64,000 nucleotides of DNA from a virus: positions 55,102 to 119,101 of the IMG/VR virus record IMGVR_UViG_3300025645_000042; one strand, 5' to 3'. The notes under the pieces are model-generated. The model made no database searches. It saw only the letters and a program-made list of their open reading frames with translations, and had not been told where the DNA came from. Made by a program: the position numbers and the translations under genes. Numbering within the stretch: position 1 is the stretch's first letter; every line of letters starts with the position of its first letter. Of the stretch, positions 7,815 through 18,264 are shown one piece after another.

Positions 7815-7834
7815 TGTGCAACAGTAGTTGCATG
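7815..7834 (+). promoter_or_regulatory. Hairpin in the scaffold gene leader
   Basis: TGCAAC-AGTA-GTTGCA forms a perfect 6-bp stem with a tetraloop, extendable by two G-U pairs. There is no T run, so it is not a terminator. It sits between the late element and the gp22 ATG and could stabilise the mRNA. Confidence 0.4.
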
Positions 7835-7865
7835 ATAATCTAAATTACAAAAATTTACAAAACAA

Positions 7866-9569: not shown

Positions 9570-11366
9570 ATGTCAAATTTTTTAAATTCAGGTAAAGTTG
9601 GTAATATCGGCTTAAACCACATGAAAACAATACGTGAGAACACTATCAACAAATGGGATTCATTAGGATTCTTAGATGGTCTTAAAGGTCACGTAAAAGA
9701 GAACATCGCTCAATTATATGAAAACGAAGCTTCTCACTTATTAAACGAATCAACTGATGCTTCTAGCTCAGGTTCTTTCGAAACCGTAGTATTCCCTATT
9801 GTTAGGAGAGTATTCTCAAAATTATTAGCTAATGACATTGTGTCTGTACAAGCTATGAATATGCCAATTGGTAAATTATTCTTCTTTGTACCACAAACGT
9901 CATCTAGATATGATGCTACTGGTGATGCTTATGGTGACCCTCATAAAGATGGTCCTCAATATTCTGCACACACTTCAATGGGTTCAGATGGTTTACCAAT
10001 CGTAAGAGGTGTAGACCCTTCATATGCTCCTACTCAGTACTTGAGTAAGAACTTATATGATATTTACTATAATGATGGATTATTTGATGCATCAAAAGGT
10101 GAAATATCAATTATTACTGGTACTGGTACGTTAAAAACGTTAGGTGCGGGTGGTACTTTCACTACAGCTGCTGATTTTGCTGCTCTTCCAACTGCTACTG
10201 ATGGTTCTTTAAGAACTGCAATTTTAGCTGTATCTGGATTTAGCTCAATCAATAAAGGTAGATTAAGTGGACCAGATGGTAATCCAATGGATACTGAATC
10301 TTTCTTAGCGTCTTTAAAAGTTGTTACTAATGGTATCGCTTTAACTGACCAAGATAGTAATGTAATTGTTGCTGATGCAACTGAAGTTCCATTTAGATTG
10401 GTAACTCAAAAATACGGTAAAGGTATCGTATCATACGATGATATTTGTGATGATGCTGGTGTTATTTACTTAGAATTAGATATGACTCACCCTGTAGATG
10501 CTGCTGGTACTTCAACATACGATGGTTACATCGGTGCTGACTTAACATTAGCTTCAGGATTCACATCTTCAGATTTCTCAGTATCTTGGGCAGAATATGC
10601 TACATTAGAACTTGAGACTGAAATGGGAGAAGTATCTTTCAAATTAGACGAAGTAGTTGTTTCTGTAGAAGAAAGAAAATTAAGGGCTACATGGTCTCCA
10701 GAATTAGCGCAAGATGTTAGTGCATTCCACAACATTGATGCTGAAGCTGAATTGACTGCTATGTTATCTGAGCAAGTTGCTGCTGAAATCGATAGAGAAA
10801 TCTTAAGAGATATCAGAAAAGCTGCTGCATGGCAATTGAGATGGGATTGGAACGGATGGAGAAAAGCTTCATTAGCTGCTAATGCTTATACTCAAAAAGA
10901 CTGGAATCAAACTTTAATTACTAAAGTTAACCAAATTTCAGCACAAATCCATAAGTCTACTCTTAGAGGTGGTGCTAACTTTGTTGTTGTATCTTCAGAA
11001 ATTTCTGCTGTATTCGATGATTTAGAGTACTTCCACGTATCTGACGCAAGTCCAGAGCAAGACCAATATAATATGGGTATCGAGAAAATCGGTTCATTAA
11101 GTGGACGTTACCAAGTGTACCGTGACCCTTATGCTCCATCTTGGTCACTTATTATGGGACACAAAGGTAAGTCTTTATTAGACACAGGTTACATCTACGC
11201 ACCTTACGTGCCAATGCAACTTACGCCTACAATGTATAACCCATTCAACTTTGCACCAGTGAAAGGTATAATGACACGTTATGCTAAAAAGGTCGTGAAC
11301 AATAGGTTCTACGGAGCTATTAGAGTTGACGGATTACAAACATTCAACGTAAACGAATTAAGATAA
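9570..11366 (+). CDS. 23: Major capsid protein (gp23-like)
   Basis: HK97-fold shell protein, 598 residues. Landmarks shared with T4 gp23 include VVFPIVRRVFSKLLANDIV near residue 75, LRATWSPELAQDVSAFHNID followed by a block rich in E(L/I) near residues 370-410, and GRYQVYRDPYAP then GYIYAPYVP near residues 510-555. An N-terminal propeptide removed by gp21 is expected; the DASSSGSFE segment (about 65-73) marks the start of the mature-like region. The last 22 codons lie in a 69-bp sequence repeated downstream at 12512-12580, marking insertion of an endonuclease cassette. No promoter is obvious in the 30-nt gap after the scaffold gene. Confidence 0.95.
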   Translation: MSNFLNSGKVGNIGLNHMKTIRENTINKWDSLGFLDGLKGHVKENIAQLYENEASHLLNESTDASSSGSFETVVFPIVRRVFSKLLANDIVSVQAMNMPIGKLFFFVPQTSSRYDATGDAYGDPHKDGPQYSAHTSMGSDGLPIVRGVDPSYAPTQYLSKNLYDIYYNDGLFDASKGEISIITGTGTLKTLGAGGTFTTAADFAALPTATDGSLRTAILAVSGFSSINKGRLSGPDGNPMDTESFLASLKVVTNGIALTDQDSNVIVADATEVPFRLVTQKYGKGIVSYDDICDDAGVIYLELDMTHPVDAAGTSTYDGYIGADLTLASGFTSSDFSVSWAEYATLELETEMGEVSFKLDEVVVSVEERKLRATWSPELAQDVSAFHNIDAEAELTAMLSEQVAAEIDREILRDIRKAAAWQLRWDWNGWRKASLAANAYTQKDWNQTLITKVNQISAQIHKSTLRGGANFVVVSSEISAVFDDLEYFHVSDASPEQDQYNMGIEKIGSLSGRYQVYRDPYAPSWSLIMGHKGKSLLDTGYIYAPYVPMQLTPTMYNPFNFAPVKGIMTRYAKKVVNNRFYGAIRVDGLQTFNVNELR

Positions 11367-11369
11367 TAT
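11301..11369 (+). repeat. gp23 3'-end copy 1 (in the intact gene)
   Basis: 69 bp covering the last codons and stop of gp23, repeated in the same orientation at 12512-12580. The differences are two synonymous third-base changes and one Val-to-Ile codon change. Both copies would encode an almost identical C-terminus. Confidence 0.9.
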
Positions 11370-11400
11370 AACTTCTTACTCGTTTCGAGATAATAACCAA

Positions 11401-11433
11401 AAAGGTCTAGATTTTTCTAGACCTTTTTTTTAT
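11401..11433 (+). terminator. Intrinsic terminator after gp23
   Basis: AAAGGTCTAG/CTAGACCTTT stem with a short AT loop and a run of eight T, 34 bp after the gp23 stop codon. Confidence 0.88.
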
Positions 11434-11465
11434 TTATATAAAGAACCATAAATTCTATTATTTAC

Positions 11466-11496
11466 TTGTATTTTACAATATTTATTAGTATACTTG
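11466..11496 (+). promoter_or_regulatory. Candidate Bacteroidota-type promoter, leaderless
   Basis: TTG (11466-11468), 20 nt spacer, TATACTTG (11489-11496), 4 nt, ATG at 11501. One mismatch to TAnnTTTG. It would let the endonuclease be expressed independently of capsid transcription. A TATTTAT string inside the spacer may be coincidental. Confidence 0.5.
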
Positions 11497-11500
11497 CATT

Positions 11501-12178
11501 ATGAAAAAAATAGAATTTATAAAAGAAGATATTAAAGAAATTATTAGGTTGTATAACGAAGAAATGTTAGGTACTCCATCAATTGGTGAAATATTTAATG
11601 TTGGTAAGAAGGTTATTAATCGAACCCTTAAAGAAAATGGTGTTGTAATGGGACCATCTGGTAGGAAATTTACTGGCGGTAAAAGTGTGGCCGATAAACG
11701 TTACAGCGAAAAAAATAAAGAAAAATTAACTGAATACCACAAAGTTTGGTCTAAAAATAATAGAAGTAAATTAAGAGATTATCATTCAGAGTGGCGTGAA
11801 GAAAATAAAGAACATATAAATGAATATAAACGCAATTATGAGCGAATGAAGTGTGCGGCTGACCCAAGGTATAAAATATCTAAAAGAACTCGCACAGCGG
11901 TTTATACATGTCTTAAAGAAGCTAACATATCAAAGTATCGTTCTACGTTTAGTATAATAGGTTATGGTATTGATGAATTAATGGAACATTTGGAGAAACA
12001 ATTTGTTGATGGAATGACTTGGGATAATTATGGTGAGTGGCATGTTGACCATATAAAACCAATGTCATCATTCTCATTTAAGAGCGTTGATGACATTGAG
12101 TTTAAGGAGTGTTGGAAATTGGATAATCTTCAACCGCTTTGGGGTGAGGATAATTTATTAAAAGGGTCATTTTATTAA
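11501..12178 (+). CDS. Free-standing HNH homing endonuclease
   Basis: 225 residues. The N-terminus carries an HTH-like segment (IKEIIRLYNEEMLGTPSIG and following, about residues 12-45) that may contact DNA. A helical charged spacer follows (about 60-110). The C-terminal HNH nuclease shows WHVDHIKPMSSF with the His-Asp-His core near residue 178, then a CWKLDNLQPLW segment and a final DNLLKG. This is a standard phage HNH layout. It sits directly behind gp23 and between duplicated gp23 ends, so the target is probably the gp23 3' region of endonuclease-free relatives. It is unrelated in sequence to the endonuclease in the portal intein beyond the HNH core. Confidence 0.9.
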   Translation: MKKIEFIKEDIKEIIRLYNEEMLGTPSIGEIFNVGKKVINRTLKENGVVMGPSGRKFTGGKSVADKRYSEKNKEKLTEYHKVWSKNNRSKLRDYHSEWREENKEHINEYKRNYERMKCAADPRYKISKRTRTAVYTCLKEANISKYRSTFSIIGYGIDELMEHLEKQFVDGMTWDNYGEWHVDHIKPMSSFSFKSVDDIEFKECWKLDNLQPLWGEDNLLKGSFY

Positions 12179-12320
12179 GAATTCAATAAAAATTTAAAAA
12201 TAATCATATTTTTATTAAAACTTTTTAAAATTTGGGACTATTCTATATATGTAGACTTTATAAAAAGTCATGATGTATTACATACTTTGTAATATAAATA
12301 ACAATTAATAATTTTTTTAT
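12179..12320 (+). other. Structured gap inside the endonuclease cassette
   Basis: 142 bp without a gene. Two small hairpins are adjacent: GACTTT/AAAGTC (12254-12269) and ATTACA/TGTAAT (12277-12293). Neither has a T run. They may be a leader structure for the 63-aa gene. No group I intron core was recognised. Confidence 0.4.
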
Positions 12321-12512
12321 ATGAAACAATTTTATGAAGGTGATTTATGTAAACATAAATCACAAAATATACTATTTGTTGTTGAAATTGAAGACCATCC
12401 TGATTATACCATAAGTCATGTTAACAAATATGGTGACCTACATCGATTCACAACAAAATTTCATTGTTTGGAACCTGTTAATAAGGGTAATGGGTTGAAG
12501 TTACATACTTAA
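12321..12512 (+). CDS. Small cassette protein, 63 aa
   Basis: Not recognised. The predicted beta-rich product begins MKQFYEGDLCKHKSQN and contains FVVEIEDHPDYTISHV. The layout suggests a small barrel of the kind found in SH3/KOW-like domains, but this is only a resemblance. The gene lies within the endonuclease cassette, and its TAA stop ends exactly where the second gp23-tail copy begins. Carriage as a passenger of the mobile unit is the natural reading. Confidence 0.6.
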   Translation: MKQFYEGDLCKHKSQNILFVVEIEDHPDYTISHVNKYGDLHRFTTKFHCLEPVNKGNGLKLHT

Positions 12513-12580
12513 ATAGGTTCTACGGAGCAATTAGAGTTGACGGATTACAAACATTCAACATTAACGAGTTAAGATAATAT
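12512..12580 (+). repeat. gp23 3'-end copy 2 (stranded remnant)
   Basis: Direct copy of 11301-11369, still translatable as the gp23 C-terminus ending NELR-stop, but with no start codon or upstream gene body. Differences from copy 1 are mainly silent, which indicates divergence while under coding selection. Confidence 0.9.
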
Positions 12581-12603
12581 CTTAATATCGTAGAGATAGA
12601 TAA

Positions 12604-12630
12604 AAGCCTAGCTAATGCTAGGCTTTTTTA
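12604..12630 (+). terminator. Intrinsic terminator beyond the gp23 remnant
   Basis: AAGCCTAGC-TAAT-GCTAGGCTT stem with TTTTTTA. It also overlaps the stop codon of the convergent recombinase gene, so it may serve both strands. Confidence 0.85.
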
Positions 12631-13196
12631 TTTAATTTTTTTACTTTTTGAACCGTCCCTGAAGATTTATTTGTTAATGACATCACTTTTCTTATTGAAT
12701 ATCCCATATTTAAAAAGGCTGTAACTTTTTCATTTTCTTTTAAAAAATGCAAATCACTTTTTTTGGACCCTCTTTTACGACCTAATTTACCACCTTTTTT
12801 TATATAAAGTTCTCTACCAGCGTTTAACCTTTTTTTAATTCTTTCTGTTTCTAAAGCAGAATCTTCTATTTGCTTTTTTAAGCTATCGTTTTTATCATTG
12901 AAAGCACAAATTATTTTCACATCTAAAATCTTACAATTATCAATAAAATATTTCAAATATCTTTCTTTTCTAGAAACCCTATTTAATTCAGTTACCAAAA
13001 CAATTTTGATGTTTTTCGTATCTAAAAAATCAATATACTTTTCTACATCAATAAAATTTTTAAAACCACTACAATAAGATTCAAATATTTTGACTATATT
13101 ATATTCAGAATATTTATCAACCAAATGATTTATTTGATAATTTGTATCTTGTTTAACTGTACTACATCTAGCAATTATTATTGCGTTATTTATCAT
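12618..13196 (-). CDS. Serine recombinase (resolvase/invertase family)
   Basis: 192 residues, the usual length for small serine recombinases. The catalytic domain shows ARCSTVKQ with nucleophile Ser12 and Arg10, and LNRVSRKERY with Arg73 and Arg76. A long helix (about 110-130) leads to a basic linker KLGRKRGSKKS (about 134-146). A C-terminal HTH (SIRKVMSLTNKSSGTVQKVKK, about 166-188) binds DNA. Relatives invert tail-fibre segments (Gin, Cin) or resolve cointegrates. No pair of long inverted crossover sites was found near it, so its substrate is unknown. It is the last gene of the minus-strand operon that starts at 15670. Confidence 0.88.
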   Translation of the reverse strand: MINNAIIIARCSTVKQDTNYQINHLVDKYSEYNIVKIFESYCSGFKNFIDVEKYIDFLDTKNIKIVLVTELNRVSRKERYLKYFIDNCKILDVKIICAFNDKNDSLKKQIEDSALETERIKKRLNAGRELYIKKGGKLGRKRGSKKSDLHFLKENEKVTAFLNMGYSIRKVMSLTNKSSGTVQKVKKLNKKA

Positions 13197-17575: not shown

Positions 17576-17596
17576 GTTTTTTAAAAGAAATAACTA

Positions 17597-17603
17597 TATT
17601 TAT
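17597..17603 (+). promoter_or_regulatory. TATTTAT element before the frameshifted gene
   Basis: CTATATTTATAG lies 6 nt upstream of the ATG at 17610. It could be a late element or a degenerate TAnnTTTG box; no TTG is placed at the right distance. Confidence 0.3.
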
Positions 17604-17609
17604 AGTATA

Positions 17610-17996
17610 ATGAAGAATATAGTAAAAAAATTATTAAGGGAAAGTTTAATGAATGAGAAGTCTATTTTAGATGTTTCATTGATGGATTTTAATATCAAAG
17701 AAATTATAGATTCTTGGTTAATGAGTTCAAGTGAAACCCCAGTTATGATGTTTAAATATGAAATGCAAGATGAGTATAATTTAAGTCCTGAAGAAAAAGA
17801 ACATATTATGGATATGGATGAAGATGAAATTCTTGAAAGTGATAGATTTAAAAAATGGTTAAAATATGAAGCTGAATACAAAATAGAAAATTTTATTAGT
17901 GAAATTCAAGATTATTTTAATGGAGATACTATTACTATTTGGCGTGAAATGACGGTTCCAATGGATTGGGTTAAAGGTTTATCTAAAGGGGGGTAA
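17610..17996 (+). CDS. N-terminal part of a frameshifted gene, 128 aa
   Basis: Not recognised by family. It begins MKNIVKKLLRESLMNEKSI, is acidic in the middle (DMDEDEILESD), and ends WVKGLSKGG at a run of six G (17988-17993). Skipping one base there continues the reading into a further 90 codons with matching composition (see the next entry), so the full product would be about 217 residues. It is the only plus-strand gene in a long minus-strand region and converges on the 473-aa structural gene. The start is supported by the ATG and the A/T-rich leader. Confidence 0.7.
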   Translation: MKNIVKKLLRESLMNEKSILDVSLMDFNIKEIIDSWLMSSSETPVMMFKYEMQDEYNLSPEEKEHIMDMDEDEILESDRFKKWLKYEAEYKIENFISEIQDYFNGDTITIWREMTVPMDWVKGLSKGG

Positions 17997-18264
17997 ACGA
18001 TTAGGTAAATTTTGGTCATTTGAGGAAGATGCAGCGGAAGCTCATTGGGGTGGTAAAGGTGAAAAAATTAAAATACAAACATCTATCAGAGAAGAATATA
18101 TAGATTGGAATCAAACTATTGAAGCTAATATAAATCCACAAATAGGAGAAGATGAAAAAGAAATTACCCTATTCAAGAATACTCCATTAAAAATTGAGCG
18201 GTTGGTTGTTAATGATAAAGATATTGATATATTACCAATTAAAGATAAGGTTTTTAAAGCTTAA
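17992..18264 (+). pseudogene. C-terminal part of the frameshifted gene (+1 frame)
   Basis: Open frame of 90 codons with no credible start of its own. It continues GKRLGKFWSFEEDAAEAHW and so on to ILPIKDKVFKA-stop. Deleting one G from the G6 run joins it to the upstream frame as SKGGKRLGKFWS. The possibilities are a disabling mutation, a phase-variable tract, a programmed +1 shift or a sequencing error. The FWSFEEDAAEAHWG segment looks like a conserved enzyme motif; an ADP-ribosyltransferase-like fold is only a guess. Confidence 0.6.

Follow-up and report, generated by a model that had tools for sequence, protein, structure and literature searches.

We analysed a 64-kb stretch of DNA (the window) from the 119-kb virus record IMGVR_UViG_3300025645_000042 of an uncultured T4-like phage, in which the gene for the major capsid protein gp23 is followed by a gene for an HNH endonuclease and then by a second copy of its own 3' end, here called the tail. 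The capsid protein is of the T4 type. The nearest annotated gp23 matches, from uncultured, Microcystis and Flavobacterium phages, had about 40% identity, and in the annotated phage collection no gp23 match covered 80% of the length or reached at least 60% identity. The following features were assigned to the locus, with positions given in the window.

9570..11366, plus strand: gene of the major capsid protein gp23, with 598 codons and a hybrid 3' end (PF07068 Gp23, E=1.1e-70)
11286..11315, plus strand: putative homing target, gp23 codons 573-582 (KKVVNNRFYG), in the form of HNH-bearing phages (AAA..GTG AAC AAT AGG)
11301..11369, plus strand: tail copy 1, functional and in frame; foreign-type end (GTA..GAA), followed by a 3' untranslated region (3'UTR) resembling that of phage L006
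11399..11428, plus strand: intrinsic terminator behind copy 1, 13-bp stem and T run
11446..11462, minus strand: 17-mer AATAATAGAATTTATGG, operator-like, located ahead of the HNH gene; in inverted orientation it matches the right-hand portion of the gp23 target
11466..11496, plus strand: beside the operator, what we take, by eye and from the general consensus, to be a possible Bacteroidota-type promoter (TTG-N20-TATACTTG)
11501..12178, plus strand: HNH endonuclease gene, 225 aa, phrog_1035; predicted N-terminal helix-turn-helix (HTH), helical linker and C-terminal HNH (WHVDHI...NLQPLW...N..KG)
12321..12512, plus strand: 63-aa open reading frame (ORF), cargo; its stop codon shares the opening base of copy 2
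12511..12512: junction without homology at which the cargo meets the stranded tail
12512..12580, plus strand: tail copy 2, the stranded old gp23 end from codon 578, not translated as gp23
12581..12630, plus strand: old gp23 3'UTR and terminator (12602-12627), also found in phage L001, the hairpin loop alone being inverted

The two tails form direct repeats (11301-11369 and 12512-12580) that are identical at 65 of 69 positions (94%) without a gap, 66 bp being coding (gp23 ends at 11366) and 3 bp lying past the stop codon. A preliminary description of this DNA had placed the repeats around a terminator, the HNH gene and the 63-aa gene, and had stated that they differ by silent changes and one Val/Ile codon. 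Both points were borne out, as the four differences make up GCT/GCA and GAA/GAG, which are silent, and GTA/ATT, which is Val/Ile. The degenerate pattern NRFYG..VDG occurred exactly twice in the 64 kb, with none expected from 100 shuffles. The two-tail repeat is neither due to chance nor unique, and four other phages have the same structure. An assembly artefact was judged unlikely, since five contigs agree, no homology exists at the junction between cargo and tail, and the block of identity spans no more than 30 bp. A group I intron or an intein was rejected, as the stop codon and terminator of gp23 itself precede the HNH gene and no Rfam intron family matched. A search for relatives of the 63-aa ORF gave one weak partial match and nothing convincing.

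The four other phages were found by scanning all gp23 loci in translation for second tails, and comprise L083 and L099, with an HNH gene, and L012 and L250, with other cargo. Two tails were present in 3 of 96 distinct gp23 ends with the HNH gene (HNH-plus) and in 2 of 145 without it (HNH-minus). The similarity of the second copy starts at codon 577 in L012, L083, L099 and L250 and at codon 578 in the window, within NNRFYG, and the right junctions of the five phages lie no more than 3 bp apart, the sequence before them being unrelated. Pooled over the two-tail loci, the differences between the copies are distributed 7/2/47 over codon positions 1, 2 and 3 (47 of 56 in the third), and 43 differing codons are silent as against 4 that are not, which indicates that the tails changed as coding sequence, each in a different phage. 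The copies in L012, L083, L099 and L250 are separated by 11-17 changes, mostly silent. The earlier claim that the repeats had diverged under capsid coding selection in different phages was in this way upheld in a wider sample, in which differences random by codon position were not seen. The second copy appears to be the native one, either by its closer match to the relatives of the gene body or because it passes directly into the native 3' region, in the window (by its 3'UTR), in L012 and in L099.

The HNH protein was given no name by Pfam and PDB profile searches, and in a fold search its N-terminal part was weakly like the HTH domains of DeoR, SorC and sigma-4, and no match reached E<0.001. 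Residues H181, D183, H184, N209 and N218 of the HNH motif are invariant in 35 relatives. Relatives were found at 79 new loci, with 48-66% identity, and further ones by a later search; every relative retrieved sits immediately after gp23 and is read in the same direction, and none is at another site. As with free-standing homing endonucleases, an ORF with a nuclease motif lies beside its presumed target gene, and it is present or absent between close relatives: L001 is empty, the window is filled and L002 retains only a 3' fragment of the HNH gene. L004 and L005 have only the spacer. The L002 remnant and these spacers indicate that gain and loss of the HNH gene are ongoing.

L001, which was found by the gp23 search, shares 99.9% identity with the window along some 21 kb, the differences being point substitutions, small indels and two large gaps, one of which is the cassette. 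It has one tail and lacks the cassette, so that there is a presence/absence polymorphism between close relatives. The two copies in the window are followed by unrelated 3'UTRs, the copy 1 type resembling L006 and the copy 2 type being that of L001 apart from the hairpin loop. As the single tail of L001 runs into the copy 2 3'UTR, copy 2 with its terminator appears to be the old 3' end and the 3'UTR of copy 1 to be foreign. The question which tail a cassette-free relative would match received a mixed answer, since the tail of L001 is chimeric: it has the copy 1 base at 11318, the copy 2 bases at the three later differences and then the copy 2 3'UTR. The flanks hold only a handful of other substitutions, and chance mutation inside these 69 bp is an improbable source of the pattern (about 2%, by our own estimate). 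L001 may be an excision product of tail-tail recombination, as a chimeric tail is what recombination of the repeats in the shared 30-bp block would leave. Alternatively, for the window only, a two-tail donor could have given the whole unit to an L001-like phage with crossovers in the 30-bp identical block, L001 then being the pre-insertion state. This predicts the exact chimeric pattern, but L001 has the HNH-type target codons and yet no HNH gene, and excision between the repeats gives the same pattern with no need of a two-tail donor; we consider it unlikely, although not to be dismissed lightly. We make no claim that L001 is the ancestral state. An exact search of viral contigs for the copy 1 tail and 3'UTR gave no match, L006 being the nearest type, and thus no direct donor was found.

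In the old gp23 terminator the loop is inverted between the two phages, reading GCCTAGC-TAAT-GCTAGGC in the window (12606-12623) and GCCTAGC-ATTA-GCTAGGC in L001 (about 7826-7843). A resolvase/invertase-like gene (12618-13196, minus strand) lies directly behind the stranded tail; it is shared with L001 and therefore lies outside the cassette.

Additionally, we compared synonymous codon choice between HNH-plus and HNH-minus phages at 220 testable C-terminal gp23 codons. The association with the HNH gene was highest at codons 573, 576, 580 and 579, with a peak region at 573-582. HNH-minus phages prefer AAG..GTT AAC AAC AGA TTC, whereas HNH-plus phages have AAA, GTG/GTA, AAT, AGG/CGC and TTT. In distance-matched pairs the silent divergence at codons 573-582 was 0.54 between HNH-plus and HNH-minus phages versus 0.38 between HNH-minus phages, and elsewhere in gp23 the two kinds of pair hardly differed. 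When labels were permuted within clusters the observed value was reached in 0 of 300 permutations, and 573-582 was the top window of the region. Such recoding is the trace that would be expected of a protein-neutral immunity allele.

The spacers between gp23 and the HNH gene hold AAYAAYMGRTTTTATGG, which is NNRFYG in DNA form. In a position weight matrix scan of 265 six-codon gp23 windows, codons 577-582 fitted the spacers best by far, at 16.5 bits above shuffles, and the motif was absent from the spacers of HNH-minus phages (Mann-Whitney U test, p=2e-18). A random origin of the motif was ruled out by the HNH-minus spacers, the shuffles and all other gp23 windows. It occurs in either orientation, mostly 15-60 bp ahead of the HNH start, and the left half of the target is not repeated there. 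The motif of the window is inverted and has one mismatch to the stricter pattern, while a match without mismatch needed a pattern that was loosened after viewing. A sigma-70 promoter scan gave fewer sites than in shuffles. Autorepression is probable, with the enzyme binding this copy of the right half-site in the promoter region. The 17-mer might instead be the stub that remains of an earlier stranded tail after decay, and no binding site. In L081 (4922-4960) and L023 (7812-7845) the similarity of the spacer motif to the gp23 tail seems to continue beyond the 17-mer, and these extended motifs are possibly such stubs. At most loci, however, the similarity stops at GG and is followed by promoter-like sequence, the distance from the 17-mer to the HNH start stays in a limited range and the window copy is inverted, which makes the stub origin rather improbable.

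We are confident, short of certainty, that the locus is best explained by a free-standing homing endonuclease that is specific for gp23 and replaces its tail, the cleavage, binding and immunity being deduced from the sequence patterns described. In phages that lack the HNH gene, the HNH protein would bind gp23 codons 573-582, a target of about 30 bp, and would cut at the boundary of codons 577 and 578. The left end would invade a co-infecting HNH-bearing genome, from which repair would copy the synonymously recoded tail, the terminator, the HNH gene and any adjoining cargo. With no shared sequence to the right of the cargo, the right end of the recipient would be joined without homology, as the observed junctions suggest, and the old tail and terminator would be left stranded downstream, an expected by-product of the missing right-hand flanking homology. 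In this way gp23 would be kept intact and the full target lost, copy 1 being the recoded form of the donor and copy 2 the right half only, and the direct repeats would permit later excision, the likely origin of L001. The proposal that incoming DNA rebuilds the 3' end of gp23, displaces the old end and changes the cut site fits L001 and the four other two-tail loci, and also the common breakpoint, the mainly synonymous differences and the HNH-linked recoding centred on the breakpoint. Replacement of the 3' end can be retained from the preliminary description; with a putative cut about 65 bp ahead of the stop codon, the tail is better regarded as co-converted donor gp23 sequence than as a discrete carried unit.

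Several observations weigh against this explanation. Some HNH-minus phages (L001 and L006) have the recoded form, and the association tests handled relatedness by clusters and matched pairs only. L250 is reversed, with copy 1 matching the nearest capsid relatives, and L083 is ambiguous. The tail of L001 mixes both copies, which in the window differ at four sites only; the order of events in the window could not be read off directly from a chimeric tail, and insertion was not directly caught. Finally, an endonuclease cassette between tails, as first described, was found at three loci, but the two-tail loci L012 and L250 have other cargo and no HNH gene. These two loci, and cargo that differs in every case, would suit an HNH gene that is a passenger, the conserved gp23 3' end being a general recombination hot spot at which homology-based or illegitimate exchange duplicates tails without an endonuclease. 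We hold this to be very unlikely, as the non-homologous right junctions of five phages start so close together, and the HNH-linked recoding and the spacer motif meet at the same codons, which is not expected of a passenger. An origin of both copies from a single, locally duplicated tail by drift, instead of from two phages, might be read from the few differences in the window but can be set aside almost entirely, given the unrelated 3'UTRs behind the copies, one L006-like and one as in L001 bar the hairpin loop, and the larger, mostly silent divergence in the other four phages.

The cargo between the tails of L012 (7860-8633) is a GNAT acetyltransferase-domain protein, and the inserted block of L083 (5652-6968, minus strand) also encodes a second pair of putative endonucleases, in which DUF723/DUF4379 zinc-finger domains occur. 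An N-terminus like MKxLIKKLLRE was seen in accessory genes, several of them beside gp23 (L099 at 5687 and 7320, L250 at 12489, L026 at 9244 and the window at 17610), and it is perhaps a signal for targeting to the capsid that includes an LxE protease site, like that of the internal proteins of T4. The gene starting MKNIVKKLLRESL in the window (17578-18260, ORF 17610-17996) is missing from L001, where the site is otherwise nearly identical, and its frame appears to stop early after a G run.

Only tentatively, and with some inclination to doubt it ourselves, we suggest that the cut at the 3' end of the capsid gene may be a general gene-delivery port in these phages, where one-ended homing would bring arbitrary neighbouring genes behind gp23 and the duplicated tail would allow clean removal by tail-tail recombination. 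The cargo that we have in mind includes acetyltransferase-like and other proteins, several with the MKxLIKKLLRE start, and second endonucleases. Homing with tail replacement would provide a route for phage gene gain and loss beside an essential gene when the partners share one-sided homology only, and would explain odd stranded gene ends in phage genomes. The target site, breakpoint and probable immunity coding of a widespread capsid-specific endonuclease family were obtained here without experiment, and three independent sequence signals concur to within a few codons.

A report of this tail-replacing endonuclease anatomy in phages was not found in our searches of open-access papers. In HEG-islands, HNH and other homing endonuclease genes (HEGs) near capsid or essential genes likewise mark genetic-exchange boundaries, while stranded 3' ends or a mapped target are not reported in the passages considered (PMC10448857). 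In intronless homing of T-even phages by SegF, SegG and MobE, resection must reach the homology flanking the endonuclease for inheritance (PMC2988022). There, too, a free-standing gene lies beside an essential gene that the enzyme cuts, as it presumably does here, and the flank is co-converted. Those systems need two-sided homology, whereas the right-hand junction of the present element lacks homology and part of the tail is left behind. The segD gene of T4 also adjoins gene 23, but is GIY-YIG and antisense. As in the autorepression of I-TevI (PMC2988022), a sequence like the homing site, without the cleavage part, lies upstream of the endonuclease gene and overlaps its promoter region; the present enzyme, unlike I-TevI, is a free-standing HNH protein, and its motif, seen at the sequence level only, stands in either orientation.

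The closest parallel is with the C-terminal-replacing mobile ORFs (mORFs) of fungal mitochondria, described for atp6 of Allomyces and for atp6, atp9, cox2 and nad3 of Glomus (PMC3630166). In both, the endonuclease gene lies behind a 3' end fused in frame to the host gene, a second 3' end of that gene stands downstream of the ORF, and the differences between the ends are mostly silent. That the fused end is foreign and the stranded one native, as in the mORFs, is indicated here for the window, L012 and L099, whereas L083 is ambiguous and L250 reversed. Tail rebuilding is therefore not the distinct principle that the preliminary description had taken it to be; it is already known from fungal mitochondria, and it is the phage case that we did not find described. 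The phage element differs in that it affects a capsid gene in a phage genome and not a mitochondrial gene, encodes an HNH and not a LAGLIDADG or GIY-YIG enzyme, has a terminator that parts the tail from the endonuclease, uses the same breakpoint in five phages and has a target deduced from recoding. It works like an mORF without being a member of that group.
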